Below, in pieces: positions 5,446-39,098 of a DNA stretch of 43,235 nt. The notes beneath the pieces are model-generated. The model ran no database searches and was not told the origin of the DNA. It was given only the letters and a program-made list of their open reading frames with translations. The stretch's first letter is position 1. Each line of letters begins with the position of its first letter. This stretch comes from an uncultured bacterium. GTDB lineage: Bacteria; Cyanobacteriota; Vampirovibrionia; Gastranaerophilales; Gastranaerophilaceae. The stretch covers positions 1-43,235 of the forward strand of contig CAMTMK010000015.1 in the NCBI GenBank assembly GCA_947073645.1. Reading direction: 5' to 3'. Made by a program: the position numbers and the translations under genes.

Positions 5446-6420
5446 ATGAGAACAGCTGTTATTTATAACGATAAAATTATAGTGAATGAAACCCCGTCAA
5501 TATCTTTGGGTGGTAGAAAAGGTGCTGTAGTAAAAGTTTTGGGATGCGGTTTGTGCGGGTCAGATATTGTGAAATTTGTTCATAAAATTTCAAAAGACGG
5601 AACAGTTCTCGGACATGAGATTGTTGCCAAAATTGTTGAAATTGATTCAGAAACTGATTTTAAAGCTGGAGATACAATCGTAACTTCACATCATATACCT
5701 TGCGGGGAATGTGTTTATTGTAAACATGGAAATGTTTCTATGTGTGAGCATTTTAAGGCTACTAATATTCGCCCGGGCGGTTTTTCGGAATTAGTTTACT
5801 TATCGGAAGAACATTTGCAAAATGTTGCACATTTAAAACCCGAAAATTTAACAGAAGTCGAAGCATCTTTTTATGAGCCTTTGGGTTGTATTGTAAGAGC
5901 TGTAAAGCGTGCTAATCTATTGAAGGGCGATGAAGTGCTTGTTGTTGGGTTAGGTTCTATCGGAATTCTTACGGCACAAGCATTAAAAGCATATGGAATG
6001 AATGTCGTCGGATGTGACCTTTTGCCTGAAAGAATTGAATTCTTGCGCAAGCTTGGAATTGATGCCATTGATGTAAGAGAATTGGCAGGTGAATTTGACG
6101 GAATATTTATGACATCAGGGGCAGATAAGGCTATTGATACAGCTTTAAAATATGTCAGAAACGGCGGGAAAATCCTCGTATTTTCAAGTACTCCTTCTGA
6201 AATCTCGGCTTATGCAAATAATGAGATTTATTATAGAGAATTGACTGTTATGGGAAGTTATTCGCCATCCCCTGTTGATTTGAAAGATTCACTTGAACTT
6301 TTGAGAAGAGGTAAAGTTAAAGTCGACGGGATTTCTACAATATATGAGCTTGATGATATTCAGCAGGCTTTTGAAGATACAATGTCAAATAAAATTATGA
6401 AAGCGTATATAAAATTATGA
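5446..6420 (+). CDS. zinc-dependent medium-chain alcohol dehydrogenase, first of pair
   Basis: A 324-aa MDR-superfamily dehydrogenase. Catalytic zinc candidates are C37 in GCGLCGSD and H57-E58 in GHE. The structural zinc motif has four Cys at 86, 89, 92 and 100 (CGECVYCKHGNVSMC). A nucleotide-binding GLGSIG lies near 168. Such enzymes oxidise polyols, sugars or alcohols with NAD(P), like sorbitol or threonine dehydrogenase; the substrate cannot be read from the sequence. Its stop overlaps the start of the next gene by four bases (ATGA), so the two are translationally coupled. No Shine-Dalgarno is seen before this ATG. Confidence 0.88.
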   Translation: MRTAVIYNDKIIVNETPSISLGGRKGAVVKVLGCGLCGSDIVKFVHKISKDGTVLGHEIVAKIVEIDSETDFKAGDTIVTSHHIPCGECVYCKHGNVSMCEHFKATNIRPGGFSELVYLSEEHLQNVAHLKPENLTEVEASFYEPLGCIVRAVKRANLLKGDEVLVVGLGSIGILTAQALKAYGMNVVGCDLLPERIEFLRKLGIDAIDVRELAGEFDGIFMTSGADKAIDTALKYVRNGGKILVFSSTPSEISAYANNEIYYRELTVMGSYSPSPVDLKDSLELLRRGKVKVDGISTIYELDDIQQAFEDTMSNKIMKAYIKL

Positions 6421-7448
6421 GAGCGATTCAATATTACGGACCACAAAATATAAGTTATGAAGAAGTTTCTATAAAACCGCCTCAAGAAGGTGAAATTGTC
6501 GTAAAAGTTATGTCTGCGCTTACTTGCGGAACGGATGTGAAAACCTTTAGACGCGGTCATCCCGTACTTATAAAATCAGTACCTTCAGGATTCGGCCACG
6601 AATTTTCAGGTATTGTTGATAAAGTCGGCAAAGGTGTTGAAAACGTTAAAGTAGGTGACAGAGTTGTTTGTGCAAATTCTGCACCTTGCGGACACTGTTT
6701 CTATTGCAGGCATGAAGAATATAATCTTTGTGAAAATCTTGATTTGCTTAATGGAGCGTATGCAGAATATATAACAGTTCCTGCGCGCATTGTTAAGAAA
6801 AATACACTTATTTTGCCTGATGATTTAAGTTTTGATAAAGCTGCGTTCTGTGAACCGTTAGCAAATGTTGTTCATGGAGTTGAAAGAACAGGGATTAAAG
6901 AAGGACAGACGGTTGGGATTATTGGTATTGGACCAATCGGGCTAATGTTTGCACGCCTTGCAAAGTTGAAAGGTGCTAATGTTATTGTTGCGGGCAGAAA
7001 TCCCATGAAACTTAAGCTTGCGGAAGAATTTGCACATGCTGATGAGATTATTGATTTAACAAAATATCCAAATCCTGAAAAAATCTTTAAAGAGTATACG
7101 GAAGAACACAGAGGACTTGATGTCGCGGTTGAATGTGTAGGATTACCAGAGATTTGGGAAAGAATTTTCTCCTGTGTGCGTCCCGGCGGAACTGTACATT
7201 TCTTCGGCGGGTGTAAATCTGGTTCTACGGTAACTTTTGATACCACAAAAATGCATTATGGTGATATAAAATTGATGAGTGTATTCCACCATACTCCAAA
7301 ATATTTCCGAATGGCTCTGGGTTATATTGCATCAGGAGATGTTGAGGTTGAAAAACTTATAACAGATACGCTTCCGCTTGAAAAAGTTGAATATGCTATG
7401 CAGCAGCATATTGAGGGGAAAGCAATTAAGTTTCTTATTAAACCATAA
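6417..7448 (+). CDS. zinc-dependent medium-chain alcohol dehydrogenase, second of pair
   Basis: A 343-aa MDR dehydrogenase related to but clearly diverged from its upstream neighbour. C37 in LTCGTDVK and H61-E62 in FGHEF are the catalytic zinc candidates. Cys 91, 94, 97 and 105 form the structural zinc site, and GIGPIGL near 168 is the cofactor loop. It overlaps the preceding gene by four bases. The pair may form a heteromer or act in sequence on one substrate; that is inference. The prepilin-like gene with a G10 tract begins 13 bases downstream and may be on the same transcript. Confidence 0.88.
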   Translation: MRAIQYYGPQNISYEEVSIKPPQEGEIVVKVMSALTCGTDVKTFRRGHPVLIKSVPSGFGHEFSGIVDKVGKGVENVKVGDRVVCANSAPCGHCFYCRHEEYNLCENLDLLNGAYAEYITVPARIVKKNTLILPDDLSFDKAAFCEPLANVVHGVERTGIKEGQTVGIIGIGPIGLMFARLAKLKGANVIVAGRNPMKLKLAEEFAHADEIIDLTKYPNPEKIFKEYTEEHRGLDVAVECVGLPEIWERIFSCVRPGGTVHFFGGCKSGSTVTFDTTKMHYGDIKLMSVFHHTPKYFRMALGYIASGDVEVEKLITDTLPLEKVEYAMQQHIEGKAIKFLIKP

Positions 7449-7461
7449 GGAAAGGAGAATT

Positions 7462-8303
7462 ATGAAAAATTTAAGCATGAATCGGCTCGTCGGGGGGGGG
7501 GCAATCTAAGCCAATCTCCATTTATTGAAAGTTTATCCAAAACCCATGTGTCGGGTCCGGCGGTACGCTGGGGCTTTACTTTGGCTGAGGTTTTAATTAC
7601 CATTGGCATTATTGGTGTTATTGCGTCCTTAACCATACCTAATATTGTTAATAATCATTTAGAAAAAAGACGTATAGTACAATTAAAAAAAGCTTATAAT
7701 ACTATAAGCAGAGCCTTTGATATGGCTATAGCAGAAAATGGAACGGTTGATAATTGGTGTGCTCGACCGGTTAATTGGGATGAATGTTCTGTTGATATTA
7801 CAAATAAAATTTTACCATATATGCAAAAGGTAAAATTATGTAAGGGCGATGCTCAGTGGAATTCTAAATACTGTTTTGCAACTTCTTATAAAAATTTAGA
7901 GGGTGGAATTGCCGGATTATGGCTTAATAAAGAAAAGCTTTTCAGAACTTCGGATGGTGTTTCATTTAATATTAGGGCTGATTGTTGTGATATGTTTAGT
8001 CAATATTGGTGCACAGGTACAACAAATGGCTATATGAATAATTGCGGGAGTGTTAATGTTGATATAAACGGACCTGATGGTCCAAATGTTGCCGGGAAAG
8101 ATTACTTTTATTTTTCAATAAGGAAAGATAAAATTCTACCTTTAGGAATACAGCAGGATACTCATTATTTACGCTCATTTAGTAACAGGTGTCTAAATTT
8201 TGGAGATGCCTGTGCAGGGTGGGTAATTTATAATGAAAATATGGATTATTTGCACTGTAAAGATTTGGATTGGAATGGCAAGAACAGCTGTAAGCAAAAA
8301 TAA
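7462..8303 (+). CDS. prepilin-like protein, frame interrupted at a G10 tract (predicted phase OFF)
   Basis: The ATG at 7462 has AAAGGAG four bases upstream but, with ten G at 7492-7501, reads only 15 codons to TAA 7507. The frame from 7510 onward is open to 8303 and encodes a type IV prepilin or pseudopilin: GFTLAEVLITIGIIGVIASL is the cleavage/methylation segment with hydrophobic helix and Glu at +5. Eleven G (or eight) would join ATG 7462 to this frame and give 280 aa with a leader of about 38 residues. The mature part is Cys-rich with short Gly/Asn loops, as in surface or minor pilins. A GTG at 7548 could start a short-leader form (251 aa) but lacks a Shine-Dalgarno. Tract length may vary in the population. 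Confidence 0.8.
7492..7501 (+). repeat. G10 homopolymer tract (prepilin-like gene)
   Basis: Ten consecutive G begin 30 bases after ATG 7462, in the context GTC-G10-CA. With ten G the gene is out of frame; with nine it also stops early; with eleven it is open. See also 29202 and 37976. Confidence 0.95.
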
Positions 8304-8327
8304 AGACCGATTAAATCGGTCTTTTTT
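8302..8327 (+). terminator. intrinsic terminator of prepilin-like gene
   Basis: The 10-bp stem AAAGACCGAT/ATCGGTCTTT (8302-8311 and 8315-8324) has a 3-base loop and runs into T6. It overlaps the TAA at 8301-8303. Presence of a strong terminator supports the prepilin frame as a real transcription unit. Confidence 0.9.
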
Positions 8328-26207: not shown

Positions 26208-26248
26208 TATTTGCGCAAATTTTTTAGATTTTAGACTTTATACAATAT

Positions 26249-27298
26249 ATGGTAGTTAGTATTAATAAAGTTGCATCATCTATAATGTCTCAACCTCATT
26301 CTATTTCTCATGTAGCTGAGCCTGTTGTATCTGTTCCCAAAACTTTGACAGAAATTGATGCATTGAATTTTAGAACATATATTCACGCAAAAACCTTTGA
26401 TTTTAAAGCTACTCAAGAAGAATTAAATGCTTTATTTAAATTTGATGGTGATGAATTTTTTGTAAAAACTTATGACTTTTTTATTAAAAAACTTGGGATT
26501 TCTGAAAACTTAAAACCGCCTGTAATCAATCAGCCTGCACATCAATCTGTTGGAATGACTTATGATTTTTGTCAAAATTTGATTACCAGAAATCCAAATT
26601 CTCTAGAACAAGGTAAAAATGCCATTTTTGGACAAATTCGTCATGAACTTCAACACGTTATCCAAAATATGAATATATTGCGTACCGAAAATATTGGCGA
26701 GGAAGCAGTAGATTTTTATTCGGAACTTATTGCTAACCAAAAGATTATGAGTACTGATTATATGGTGAAAAATATTCCTTTGGAACAGGTTGATGAAACT
26801 GTGCAAAGTAATTTTAAAATATTAAAAGATTTGTTAAAAAATAATCCTAATGGTTATGAAGACGAATTAAAAGCAGGTAAAAAACTAATAGCTGATGATA
26901 TGAAGAGACAGCTTCAAACTTTCAGAAATCTTGTAGTTCAAGAAATGGGATTAATTAAAGCTGATACTAAATCTGCTAAGCGTTCAGAAAAAATGCTTGC
27001 TGAAATGTTGAAAGAAAAAGGCTATTGGAAAGATGACGGTTCAATGCATTTTGGTAGATATTCATTTGATATCAGAGAAAACGATGCAATGCTTGCACAA
27101 GGTATTGCACAGTTAAAGCTATTGCCGGCTGAACAGAAATATTGTTATGTTCAGTTAATAAAGCAACAGCAAGGAGCATTTGAACAGCTTTCTAAAAATG
27201 ATTCTAACAACAAAGAAGTGGCTGAGTTGCTGGAAACCACAAAAGAAATGTATAAAAAATTTAATTTGAAAGAATTGATAAGTTATCTTTTTGATTAA
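26249..27298 (+). CDS. unknown protein with HELQH zinc-protease-like motif
   Basis: 349 aa, not recognised as a named family. HELQH at 132-136 matches HExxH (H132, E133, H136), and EEAVDFYSEL at 151-160 offers a downstream Glu as third ligand in gluzincin fashion. The rest is strongly helical and charged, with no signal peptide and no membrane segment. Lys-rich C-terminal half (from 165) may be coiled coil. Its last four bases overlap the convergent PilB-like gene. A metalloprotease role is an inference from the motif alone. Confidence 0.6.
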   Translation: MVVSINKVASSIMSQPHSISHVAEPVVSVPKTLTEIDALNFRTYIHAKTFDFKATQEELNALFKFDGDEFFVKTYDFFIKKLGISENLKPPVINQPAHQSVGMTYDFCQNLITRNPNSLEQGKNAIFGQIRHELQHVIQNMNILRTENIGEEAVDFYSELIANQKIMSTDYMVKNIPLEQVDETVQSNFKILKDLLKNNPNGYEDELKAGKKLIADDMKRQLQTFRNLVVQEMGLIKADTKSAKRSEKMLAEMLKEKGYWKDDGSMHFGRYSFDIRENDAMLAQGIAQLKLLPAEQKYCYVQLIKQQQGAFEQLSKNDSNNKEVAELLETTKEMYKKFNLKELISYLFD

Positions 27299-28677
27299 GC
27301 CAGATACTTTTGCACTGTTTCTTTTGAAAAAACTTCAATACTATCTTGTGAATGTATGAATACAAGACAGCTGATTATTGATTTCAAAGTTTCAAAATCA
27401 GAGAATGAAAGTTTATAGCGTAAATCTTCCATATTGTTTGCAAGAAATTCCATGATAACGGTTTTATTTTCAAATACCAAACTTGAAAAATAATCAAAAG
27501 ATTCTTTCGTTTTAATCCCTTCAAGGTAGACTATATCAGGTGATTGGAATTCAATAAATCTTGAGGCTTTATCCATATTAAAGCCGACATTTTCATTTAA
27601 TTCACATTGATGCACATTTTTTAGGTTGTATTTTGCAATACTTTCAAGCGTCATAATATTTTTGTTTTTGCTTGCACTTTCAAGTAAGAGTGAATAAATG
27701 ATATGAGTTTTTCCGCTCAATGGTGAACCGCATACAATAATTATTCCGGGGTTGTTGAGTGCTGATTTTATTACATTCAAATTATTTTCGGATTTTATAA
27801 TTTGATTAAGCGCTCTTGGCGGTTTGTAGATTTTTAGAAAAATTCTTTCGCCCATAATTGTCGGGAATGTTGAGATGCTTGCTATAACATTTAATTCATC
27901 AACTTTAAAGTTCAGTTTTCCCAATTGCGGAACTTCGCTGACTGATGCATCAAGTTCTGCGAGGTTTTTTAGTTTTGCCACAAAAGATGAAGTTAATGCC
28001 TGCGGGATGTTTCCTTTGTTCAGAATTTCTCCGTTTTTCTTAAAGTTTACGGCAAATCCGTTATCTTCGTGCTGGAAAGTTACTTCATGAACTTTTTCTA
28101 AAATAGCTTGTTTTAAGACTGCACGTATAATTTTTTGAATATGATTATCTGATAAATCATCACTATGGAGTTCATCACGCCAGTCGTAATCTGTACCGTC
28201 TTCTGTTGAAATTTCTGCTGCAATTTCATCTTCTCTGTAGTATTGGTTAATTTTTTTCAGAATGCCTGTTTCAGAAGACACAACAGGTTCTATTGAACAT
28301 TCTGCTGTTTCAATAACTTTATCTATCGCAAATAAATCCAAAGGGTCTGCCATTGCTACAGTCAGTGTATCTTCAATTTTGAACAGCGGAATAATTCTGT
28401 ATTTTTTAGCATCTGCAAGACTGATGTATTTAAGGCATTTAGGGTCTAATGTGTAATCATCAAGGTTAACATATGGGATATGGAGTTTTGCTTCCAAAAA
28501 TTTCAGAATATCATCTTCGGATAAAACTCCTGAATTTATTAATACTTGTCCGATATTTATATTTTGGGCACTTGCAATCTCTTGTGCCTGCTCAATTGTT
28601 TCATATGCGACAAGTCCTGCTCTGACCAAATCGTATTTTAATTTTTCCAGTGTTTTGTTAGTAACTGTTGTTTCCAT
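27295..28677 (-). CDS. degenerate PilB/GspE-like ATPase with MshEN domain
   Basis: 460 aa. Residues about 15-150 form an MshEN domain (IGQVLINSGVLSEDDILKFLEAKLHIPYV), which can bind c-di-GMP in related ATPases. The core keeps a Walker A GSPLSGKT at 317-324, but the Asp box is reduced to LES, the Walker B region reads SPDIVYLEGIKT instead of DPDxxxxGEIRD, and the four-Cys zinc finger is absent. It is shorter than PilB (about 560 aa). Hydrolysis is doubtful; a regulatory or adaptor role in type IV pilus or secretion is likely. Follows the receiver gene by two bases with no own Shine-Dalgarno. Confidence 0.75.
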   Translation of the reverse strand: METTVTNKTLEKLKYDLVRAGLVAYETIEQAQEIASAQNINIGQVLINSGVLSEDDILKFLEAKLHIPYVNLDDYTLDPKCLKYISLADAKKYRIIPLFKIEDTLTVAMADPLDLFAIDKVIETAECSIEPVVSSETGILKKINQYYREDEIAAEISTEDGTDYDWRDELHSDDLSDNHIQKIIRAVLKQAILEKVHEVTFQHEDNGFAVNFKKNGEILNKGNIPQALTSSFVAKLKNLAELDASVSEVPQLGKLNFKVDELNVIASISTFPTIMGERIFLKIYKPPRALNQIIKSENNLNVIKSALNNPGIIIVCGSPLSGKTHIIYSLLLESASKNKNIMTLESIAKYNLKNVHQCELNENVGFNMDKASRFIEFQSPDIVYLEGIKTKESFDYFSSLVFENKTVIMEFLANNMEDLRYKLSFSDFETLKSIISCLVFIHSQDSIEVFSKETVQKYLA

Positions 28678-29177: not shown

Positions 29178-30017
29178 ATGTCTTTAATTAATAAAATTGT
29201 CGGGGGGGGGGCACAATTAGCAGAAAAGGCTAAGCCTTCATTTAGATTTGGACCTTGGCAGCAAATGGGTGCTGTTACAAGACCTGCCGACACAAGAACA
29301 ACAGAACAATTACTTGCAAATATTGATTATTTTGCAGAAAATTTGCCGGAAGTTGCGCTGTTTAAGAAAGAATTAAAGGGAATGAACCCTCAGCATTTAG
29401 GCTTAGTTTCAGATATTTGTGAACTTGGAGCCAGAATGGATATGATTAATACTAATATTAATATTAGAAAACCTGCATCAAATGGTAAAAGTTTATTAGA
29501 ATTTTTGATGGAAAAATTGCCTTGGGCTTCAAAAGAAAACCCTGAAATGATTGAATTCTCTAAAGAGGTTATTAACCATACAGATACAACTGCTTCTAAA
29601 TATTTCTTAGGAAGTTTTGCTGAAGTTTTTGAACATCCCGAAGCGGCTAAACATTTGAAAGCAACAAAACCGTTGATAAAAGATATTGCTGAAGTGACTT
29701 TAAGCGGCGGTTATACTATGGATTATTCAAAAGAACAAAAATTTGTAAATGCTCTTAGTTCTTATATTAATCCTTCAGTAAATCCTGAAAAAATTGAAGT
29801 TGTTAATGAAGCTGTCAGAACAGTTGAAAAACTTCCAGAAAGCGTGGATTTATCTTGTAAAATAGTGAGTACAGACATTATTAATAGTACTACTTCTGCA
29901 CAACAAATGAGAGAAAATCTTGAAACGTTCTCACAAATTGCAGAAGGTTTGTCTAAAAGAACTAAAGAAGTAAATTTAACAGATTACATAATTAAAAATG
30001 TTAATTTAACGGAATAA
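29178..30017 (+). CDS. unknown protein with G10 tract after codon 8 (predicted phase ON)
   Basis: 279 aa, not recognised. The start MSLINKIVGGGAQ contains the ten-G run 29202-29211; eleven G gives a stop 8 codons later and nine G a stop within three, so expression depends on tract length. The rest is soluble and largely helical with no signal peptide, membrane segment or Cys cluster of note. GAAAGGG lies eight bases before ATG 29178. It is a single gene between divergent receiver and convergent histidine-kinase genes, overlapping the latter by 17 bases. A cell-surface or host-interaction role is possible from the switching, but unproven. Confidence 0.75.
   Translation: MSLINKIVGGGAQLAEKAKPSFRFGPWQQMGAVTRPADTRTTEQLLANIDYFAENLPEVALFKKELKGMNPQHLGLVSDICELGARMDMINTNINIRKPASNGKSLLEFLMEKLPWASKENPEMIEFSKEVINHTDTTASKYFLGSFAEVFEHPEAAKHLKATKPLIKDIAEVTLSGGYTMDYSKEQKFVNALSSYINPSVNPEKIEVVNEAVRTVEKLPESVDLSCKIVSTDIINSTTSAQQMRENLETFSQIAEGLSKRTKEVNLTDYIIKNVNLTE
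29202..29211 (+). repeat. G10 homopolymer tract (gene at 29178)
   Basis: Ten G starting 24 bases after the ATG, in the same GTC-G10-CA context as the tract at 7492. With ten G the frame is open. Confidence 0.95.
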
Positions 30018-37698: not shown

Positions 37699-37862
37699 CA
37701 ATGAGCTCCAATAAGATGTATATTCTATATGAATTTTATTTCGACACTAATAATTTTAATCTTTACAAAATTTAATTAATATCATCTACATGGAGTATAA
37801 ATTTATTCGGTTAGGCAATTTTTGAACTTAAAATGTTTTTATATTTATGCAGGAGATATTTA

Positions 37863-39098
37863 ATGGGAAAAGTTCAAGCTATTAAAGCCGGTTTAAACTT
37901 ATTTAGGACAAGAACTGTTTCAGTAAGCAGTAAACGATTATTTTCGTTTGCCCAAAGGCATAAATTTAAAACTTCGGGGGGGGGGCTTTCTGAGGATGGA
38001 TTAATCCTTACTCATTTGTCGTACCATCCTCCACGTAACGGGTTTATCGATACAGCAAGGTCGGGTGCGGGAATGTCCAGAGATAGCGTTCATTTTGCCG
38101 TTAATCATGGTGTTCAGGCGCATGTGGGTGGAGCTTGGAATAGTTGTGACTATGCAGTTTTGATGCCAATGAGTTCAGCAAGACAAACCGTGGGTAATAA
38201 ATTTGCGGGAGGAATCGCTGCGGATTTTTATTCTAAAGGAAAGGTGAAAATTCCGAAAGGCTCGGTTATTGTGCGGCGAAGTGCAAGTATTCCCGAAGGA
38301 AAGTATCGTATTTCAGATGCGTCAAAAATCAAGGAATTTAAGGAGTTGCATGGAGTAATGGTAATTGAAACTTCTTCAATGGATATGGTTTCAGACGTTA
38401 ATAATATCATACGCAGGCTTGGGTATAAAGTTAAATCAGGAGGTTTTACTTGGGGTGATTCATTGCATGATTTTAATTTGTTTAATTCTTTTTTAAGAGC
38501 AAATGGAATGAAACCTATGATGCACACTTATACTCCGAATGGAAAAATTGAAGTATTAATTGAACATCTGCAGGTACGTGCTAAAAAACTTTCGGATTGG
38601 ACCGTTAAAGATAAAATGGGCGAAGTTATATTTGATTACAGGCAAGAATATTTACAATCCTTAAAATATATTGAAAAATTTGCAAATGAAACAGGTTTTC
38701 CAAAGGATTTTGATACTAAACAACTTGCTGAAATAATTCGGACTTCAGCTACTCCACAAGAGGCAATGAAGTTAATAGAAGCTAAGTTTAAAATAATAAA
38801 ATCAATGAACGTATTACAATCCGAAGCATCTGAGTTAGAATTACTGCAAGGTTTTAGAATGCTGGTTGGTGGCAGTAAATCTGCACAAATTTCGGATAAT
38901 TTAGTTTGTGAATTTTTGAGAAAGCCTAATAAAACAAGATTGCAAAAAATTCAAAAAGCTCCTGTTGCCTTAGAAACGGTACCTGAGCAGTTAATGGTGC
39001 AAAATCCTGCTCTGCGAAGTTCAGTGACGGAAATTGCCGGACAATACGGTTTAAAACTTGATAATACGGTTGCAAATAGGTTATATGAGTTAGGTTGA
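37863..39098 (+). CDS. unknown protein with G10 tract after codon 37 (predicted phase ON)
   Basis: 411 aa from ATG 37863 with AGGAG seven bases upstream; the earlier in-frame ATG at 37833 has none. The run of ten G at 37976-37985 encodes part of SGGGL; with eleven G a stop follows in three codons, with nine in seven. The basic N-terminus is followed by a region with GFIDTARSGAGMSRDSVHFAVNH (about 62-84), which looks like a folded enzymatic or binding domain, and a helical, Lys-rich C-terminal half. No family recognised. Overlaps the convergent epimerase gene by nine bases. Switchable expression hints at an exposed or costly product. Confidence 0.75.
   Translation: MGKVQAIKAGLNLFRTRTVSVSSKRLFSFAQRHKFKTSGGGLSEDGLILTHLSYHPPRNGFIDTARSGAGMSRDSVHFAVNHGVQAHVGGAWNSCDYAVLMPMSSARQTVGNKFAGGIAADFYSKGKVKIPKGSVIVRRSASIPEGKYRISDASKIKEFKELHGVMVIETSSMDMVSDVNNIIRRLGYKVKSGGFTWGDSLHDFNLFNSFLRANGMKPMMHTYTPNGKIEVLIEHLQVRAKKLSDWTVKDKMGEVIFDYRQEYLQSLKYIEKFANETGFPKDFDTKQLAEIIRTSATPQEAMKLIEAKFKIIKSMNVLQSEASELELLQGFRMLVGGSKSAQISDNLVCEFLRKPNKTRLQKIQKAPVALETVPEQLMVQNPALRSSVTEIAGQYGLKLDNTVANRLYELG
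37976..37985 (+). repeat. G10 homopolymer tract (gene at 37863)
   Basis: Ten G, 113 bases after the ATG, in the context TTC-G10-CTT. With ten G the frame is open. Confidence 0.95.

Follow-up and report, generated by a model that had tools for sequence, protein, structure and literature searches.

Homopolymeric G tracts in genes for surface structures are the classical kind of contingency locus in Campylobacter and Neisseria, where they occur in pilus genes, including pilC, and in glycosyltransferase genes. In Neisseria gonorrhoeae, the pilE-associated G4 is a G-rich, orientation-dependent element near pilin genes that exchange segments. Chi and KOPS are G-rich motifs of the leading strand that switch strand where the GC skew changes. 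In a gut commensal, Bifidobacterium breve, a poly-G tract switches sortase-dependent pili by replication slippage, an experimental precedent for the control of pili by G-tract length (PMC9187656).

The locus described here lies in a window of 43,235 nucleotides, one contig of the 1.71-Mb genome of a Ca. Gastranaerophilales bacterium (G000), a gut organism related to the cyanobacteria. It is one of about 50 prepilin genes of that genome in which an oriented G10 box stands between the start codon and the body. As in Campylobacter and Neisseria, G homopolymers are found in genes for surface structures, pilus genes and glycosyltransferases among them; here, however, a single family predominates, its default state is OFF through an offset of one G with a common direction, and the tract belongs to an oriented motif. 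The pilE G4 also combines a G-rich oriented element with nearby pilin genes that exchange segments, but in our case the element is one G10 run per locus, placed within the coding region of many genes, and nothing indicates that it forms a G4 or is tied to gene conversion. The boxes resemble Chi and KOPS in being G-rich, in lying on the leading strand and in switching strand with the GC skew, and differ in standing mostly inside gene starts, in numbering anywhere from 1 to 151 per genome in a single genus and in being nearly absent from the sampled sister families. With the B. breve switch the locus shares a tract of G10–G12 near the start of a pilus gene, a tract length that decides the fusion of two open reading frames, and a gut commensal as host; B. 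breve has one or two such loci per genome, for sortase pili, and, unlike here, neither a shared flank motif nor a replication orientation is reported in the available part of that source (PMC9187656). Our literature search for phase variation in the Gastranaerophilales lineage found no paper. What is new is that so many genes of one family are involved, that they share a default-OFF rule and that the box is oriented with replication.

Anatomy of the locus

A sequence-only reading of the window had described a prepilin-like gene switched OFF by a G10 tract and one G away from ON. The features to which we refer are the following, with G010 denoting the closest relative of G000.

6417–7448, + strand: zinc-dependent alcohol-dehydrogenase-like gene (ORF; Pfam ADH_N and ADH_zinc_N), a syntenic anchor in relatives
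7452–7457, + strand: Shine-Dalgarno sequence AAGGAG, spaced as at most homologous loci
7462–7509, + strand: short frame opened by ATG and closed by TAA at the G10 (sequence and frame analysis)
7486–7511, + strand: G10 box, CTCGTC-GGGGGGGGGG-CAATCTAAGC (flank matrix; strand following replication)
7492–7501, + strand: G10 tract, exactly 10; G11 would link the ATG to the prepilin frame
7502–7574, + strand: leader without stops in the prepilin frame (RGGGNLSQSPFIESLSKTHVSGPAVRWG); its repeat module and hairpin recur in other leaders
7575–8303, + strand: mature prepilin body, beginning FTLAEVLITIGIIGV (TIGR02532, homologues, empty site in G010)
8302–8324, + strand: intrinsic-terminator-like hairpin (hairpin scan), common to the empty site of G010
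27295–28677, − strand: type IV pilus/type II secretion ATPase-like gene (Pfam MshEN and T2SSE)
29202–29211, + strand: second G10 box, in frame; 8 codons precede it in the gene of an uncharacterized 279-aa protein (29178–30017)
37976–37985, + strand: third G10 box, in frame; it falls close to the N-terminus of an uncharacterized 421-aa protein (37833–39098)

The pilin gene starts 13 bases past the stop codon of the alcohol-dehydrogenase-like gene. The Shine-Dalgarno sequence, the ATG at 7462, the tract and the stop at 7507 are all present as the earlier reading claimed. From this ATG the frame runs ATG AAA AAT TTA AGC ATG AAT CGG CTC GTC GGG GGG GGG GCA ATC TAA, the stop occupying 7507–7509, and an additional G fuses it, without any stop, to the frame ending at 8303, which is stop-free from the tract onwards. 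G10 is OFF and G11 is ON; a simple repeat sets the reading frame. The box belongs to the motif YTTC-G10-CRNTYTNAGC and is on the leading strand.

Prepilins are recognized by an N-terminal GFxxxE cleavage/methylation motif with a hydrophobic helix; the predicted prepilin scores 18.1 bits against the N-terminal model TIGR02532 (cut-off 16.3) and 14.9 against Pfam N_methyl, under the cut-off of 21.2. About 80 homologues of the body occur in the same genome, and the same site in G010 is without a body. Both a prepilin peptidase (PF01478, on contig C3 of G000) and an assembly ATPase, the T2SSE and MshEN protein of the window, are encoded. The hairpin reported downstream of the gene was recovered by the scan, but its assignment as the terminator of the pilin did not hold: in G010 it stands directly 3′ of the pilin-less alcohol-dehydrogenase-like gene, and it is thus the terminator of the host operon. 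In other respects the anatomy is confirmed, and it is not a single-locus matter.

Repeat modules such as AAGCGTAGCCGCTTGACCCGCCACATTGGGTTTTG and GGCTACGTGCGTAGCACTTGC occur in the leaders of this locus (7530–7574) and of L118, L089, L124 and L137; they are hairpin-like, are found in either direction and stay in frame. Leaders look as though they were places where palindromic elements can land without harm.

A prepilin family with a common frame rule

There are 67 G runs of eight or longer in G000 and 63 of nine or longer; 51 of these 63 sit in the leader before the prepilin motif FTLAEVLITLGIIGVV. Matched prepilin homologues number about 80 in G000; the counts for the other genus members start at 11 and reach at least 90. 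Tracts range from 1 to 151 per genome within the genus and from 0 to 6 in the sampled sister families, so the oriented motif is not conserved as a core element of the lineage; one genus member (G022) has at least 87 pilins and only four tracts. In viral contigs a search for the G10 box found nothing.

The reading frame was analysed in 155 tract-bearing prepilins with an ATG and a Shine-Dalgarno sequence, taken from four genomes and syntenic loci. The tract length needed for fusion was 2 mod 3 in 129, 1 mod 3 in 21 and 0 mod 3 in 5, and an earlier set of 146 gave the same picture. Since most need 2 mod 3 (usually 11) and the tract is usually 10, nearly all these genes are one G short, about 20 of the 155 being in frame at the assembled length. 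An upstream start was in frame in 17 of 168 tract pilins versus 42 of 48 tractless prepilins; in G022, a species that has largely lost its tracts, all 11 sampled tractless prepilins were in frame, with leaders of mostly a few codons. When gene orientation and codon phase were combined, all six classes showed the same need. As these classes are independent, the rule is not one ancestral accident, and a founder effect was rejected as its source.

Leaders were open in the prepilin frame in 154 of the 155 cases, compared with 29 and 14 in the other two frames. Among leaders of at least 50 nt the figures were 78 of 79 versus 1 and 0, and open leaders reached 257 codons. The sequence after the tract is therefore selected for translation from the start before it, and the earlier argument that the open leader at this locus speaks against random decay is borne out family-wide. 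Downstream start codons do not explain expression in general, because many leaders span only 6–13 nt from the tract to FTLAE. At four loci (L313, L315, L319 and L180) a promoter-like TGTTATAAT and a separate downstream ATG lie between the G10 box and FTLAE; the stretch from box to FTLAE is nonetheless open in frame with the box.

Tract length and boxes in other genes

Run lengths on the leading strand were counted over 1.35 Mb of this genus, in segments of G000, G007 and G044 oriented by their own tracts; the independent strand tests were neighbour pairs in G000, strand switches in G007 and G044, and GC skew. The counts were 137 G5, 10 G6, no G7, 4 G8, 11 G9, 126 G10, 16 G11, 3 G12 and 1 G13, and no C run of seven or more was found on the same strand of this 1.35 Mb. 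With no G7, 126 G10 and no such C run, the G10 runs are not a product of chance.

In G000 alone, 9 tracts were G9, 42 G10, 10 G11 and 2 G12, and 52 of the 56 pilin tracts in G007 and G044 had length 10. Five motif-bearing orthologues of G000 and G010 were exactly G10 at 75–86% identity. Homologues do bear the tract, contrary to the possibility, raised with the first reading, that they might lack one. In homologous tract pairs between species, about six in ten were equal and four differed (10/11, 10/9 and 11/13 were seen); L182/L186 have tracts of 9/10 and L217/L220 of 13/11. Homologues thus carry the repeat at differing lengths, all in comparisons between species. At L128, a G11 versus G10 difference is accompanied by a compensating change in the leader, and the gene is in frame in both species. 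Overall, length 10 is kept more tightly than we would expect of a freely slipping tract. A metagenome assembly gives the commonest length in a population, and this length could itself be the mutational optimum. Loss of mismatch repair was rejected as a cause, MutS1 being found in 32 of 33 genomes.

The only member of the genus without a MutS1 match (G013) also has just one tract, a coincidence that may be due to chance because this MAG is 92% complete. In a CAG:439 scaffold (L187; 2222–2260, 7140–7200 and 11172) runs of N stand at pilin leaders and G tracts, and in other MAGs some contigs end within tens of bases of a tract. Such gaps and ends may reflect unresolved variation in length or leader.

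Boxes outside the pilin family occur in genes for GT2 with TupA-like ATP-grasp, GT-D glycosyltransferase and hexapeptide acyltransferase proteins, in putative peptidase-like proteins with HExxH-like stretches (identified by eye) and in lineage-specific proteins. This range is usual for contingency genes. Most of these genes are in frame at G10, and some long ORFs are in frame only at that length (for example 935+206, 310+275 and 684+287 codons), some of them conserved between species.

The box is oriented with replication

The consensus of the box is about YTTC-G10-CRNTYTNAGC, AGCTCC being common in several relatives. Its strand follows the direction of replication over the chromosome. In G000, neighbouring tracts that share a contig were on the same strand in 44 of 45 pairs; in G044 and G007 the tract strand switches essentially twice round the chromosome, and nothing else departs from this except a pair of T-preceded tracts that lie at the ends of G044 contigs. 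The tracts of G010 change strand on contig 1, between 260 and 298 kb, where the cumulative GC skew has its minimum, and local GC skew matched the tract strand in 107 of 121 stretches. General GC skew was rejected as the cause of this orientation, as runs of G5–6 favour the leading strand by only 1.7 to 1, and among runs of nine or longer on that strand all are of G and none of C.

Pilin genes co-directional with replication have G10 in their coding strand, and head-on pilin genes have C10. A matrix built from the flanks of co-directional loci nevertheless gave high scores to head-on loci (Mann-Whitney p = 6e-27) and to non-pilin loci (p = 7e-11), in both cases against the flanks of G4–5 runs, a null that is stricter than shuffled letters. 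Because the flanks are shared on the G strand whichever way the genes run, a signal read in DNA and tied to replication is likely. Dozens of pilin genes out of frame by one base at G10 and the common direction of these tracts relative to replication together suggest a genome-wide on/off switch for pili, which would be an unusual design.

Exchange, gain and loss of gene bodies

Prepilin bodies move from one leader to another, unrelated one: homologous bodies, with up to 94% nucleotide identity, start at FTLAE beneath leaders of different origin, and close relatives are a mixture of co-directional and head-on forms. The direction of the box therefore follows the locus and not the gene body. Between G000 and G010, pilin genes have been gained or lost precisely in intergenic gaps. 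Insertion of a whole pilin cassette at a fixed site was rejected, since the empty and filled sites showed neither a target duplication nor a common end. The gene of the 421-aa protein (37833–39098) is missing from the closest relative. A tractless gene for a 349-aa protein in the window (26209–27293) is also cleanly missing at the same place in G010, so genes other than those for pilins also come and go between operons.

At 29202 the relative has GGTAGTGGGG, in the same place and of the same length, with three non-G bases, two of which are shared by the next outgroup. This G10 thus arose by substitution, and insertion of the box as a fixed-length element is rejected by the comparison. Around position 7200 of L178 and L181, 310 bases about one G10 box are identical in the two genomes concerned, within a stretch of 91% identity overall, which suggests that a pilin locus was recently exchanged.

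Discussion

The explanation we prefer, to which we give an even chance of being right on the sequence comparisons above, is a default-OFF contingency system that works by slipped-strand changes in oriented G10 boxes. Tract length would change by replication slippage, so that at any one locus a minority of cells may hold G11 (or G8) and make that prepilin, and each cell might display a small, changing subset of 50–150 pilins. As 10 is the modal length genome-wide, the frame relative to 10 sets the default of each gene; most pilins would then be OFF by default and most non-pilin box genes ON. The conserved flanks and the orientation probably keep or provoke slippage of the box during replication. 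Such a system is supported by the location of 51 of the 63 tracts in prepilin leaders, the frame contrast with tractless prepilins, the open leaders, the length differences, the compensated change at L128, the contingency-type genes, the prepilin peptidase and the precedent in B. breve.

The first reading had seen an OFF-phase contingency gene, and dozens of tract-bearing prepilins, surface-sugar enzymes with a tract and some length differences between homologues favour it. What that account omits is the directional frame rule of the whole family (ON at 11, hardly ever at 9), the tightly kept length of 10 and the replication-oriented motif. Lengths 9 and 11 are about equally common, so random slippage fails to predict the ratio of 129:5 between genes ON at 11 and genes ON at 9 or 12, and ordinary slippage gives no account of the replication orientation or the conserved flanks. 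The MutS1 matches in nearly all genomes, and the orthologues that have stayed at exactly G10, also speak against free slippage. Conceivably, though we find it somewhat doubtful, the box is a sequence-specific, replication-oriented element whose flanks would be read by a dedicated factor, or in one direction by the replication machinery; the +1 frame change, made in dozens of genes at once, would then be directed, and programmed rather than random.

The strongest rival is constitutive recoding, in which a −1 slip of the ribosome at G10 or C10, or a base added by RNA polymerase, would give low fixed expression from a DNA length that is meant to be 10. It fits the directional rule at least as well as a slippage switch does: the offset points one way (129 of the 155 need 2 mod 3 and 5 need 0 mod 3) in both orientations and all six phase combinations, length is kept at 10 within and between species, and leaders are under selection although nearly all the genes look OFF. 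About 20 of the 155, however, are in frame without recoding, and some lengths vary. Efficient slippage would also damage the non-pilin G10 genes, mostly in frame as they stand, and the replication orientation and flank motif would be left without an account. Slippage on G or C runs is, moreover, less well documented than on A or T runs. We regard recoding as possible rather than probable.

Miscounting is a genuine technical concern: many tracts would truly be G11, reported as G10 by the assemblies, and the pilins simply ON. One more G would bring 108 of the 155 into frame (those at G10 that need 2 mod 3), and the Bifidobacterium study describes a tract annotated as G11 whose commonest measured length was G12, as well as trouble with Illumina sequencing on G-tract templates (PMC9187656). 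A general miscount by one base is nevertheless argued against by the non-pilin boxes, most of which are in frame at G10; the long ORFs that need the reported length to be in frame, some of them conserved, come from the same genomes. The same G10 is, in addition, found in many independent MAGs. We consider this explanation unlikely.

It is quite improbable, in our judgement, that the box is chiefly a DNA site, an oriented signal for recombination or replication comparable to the pilE G4 or to Chi and KOPS, that aids the exchange of pilin bodies and affects the frame only secondarily. An orientation that tracks replication and not the gene, flanks conserved at head-on and non-pilin loci too, and homologous bodies that begin at FTLAE under unrelated leaders in mixed co-directional and head-on forms would all fit such a site. 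But numbers of 1 to 151 per genome in one genus vary more than those of a core chromosome signal should, gene bodies are found to both sides of the box, and from the strict frame rule it is clear that translation across the box is important. Random pseudogene decay by frameshift, to which this single locus taken alone would conform, is scarcely credible when 154 of 155 leaders have no stop in the prepilin frame and dozens of paralogues have an intact body.

If the preferred reading, the default-OFF contingency system, is right, an abundant and poorly known gut lineage has a homopolymer-controlled gene family that ranks among the largest of which we are aware. The common frame rule would set the default of the family to OFF, and each cell could show different pili. 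The orientation and the flanks open an old question to direct test, namely whether contingency tracts slip passively or are elements with cis-acting signals dependent on the replication fork.
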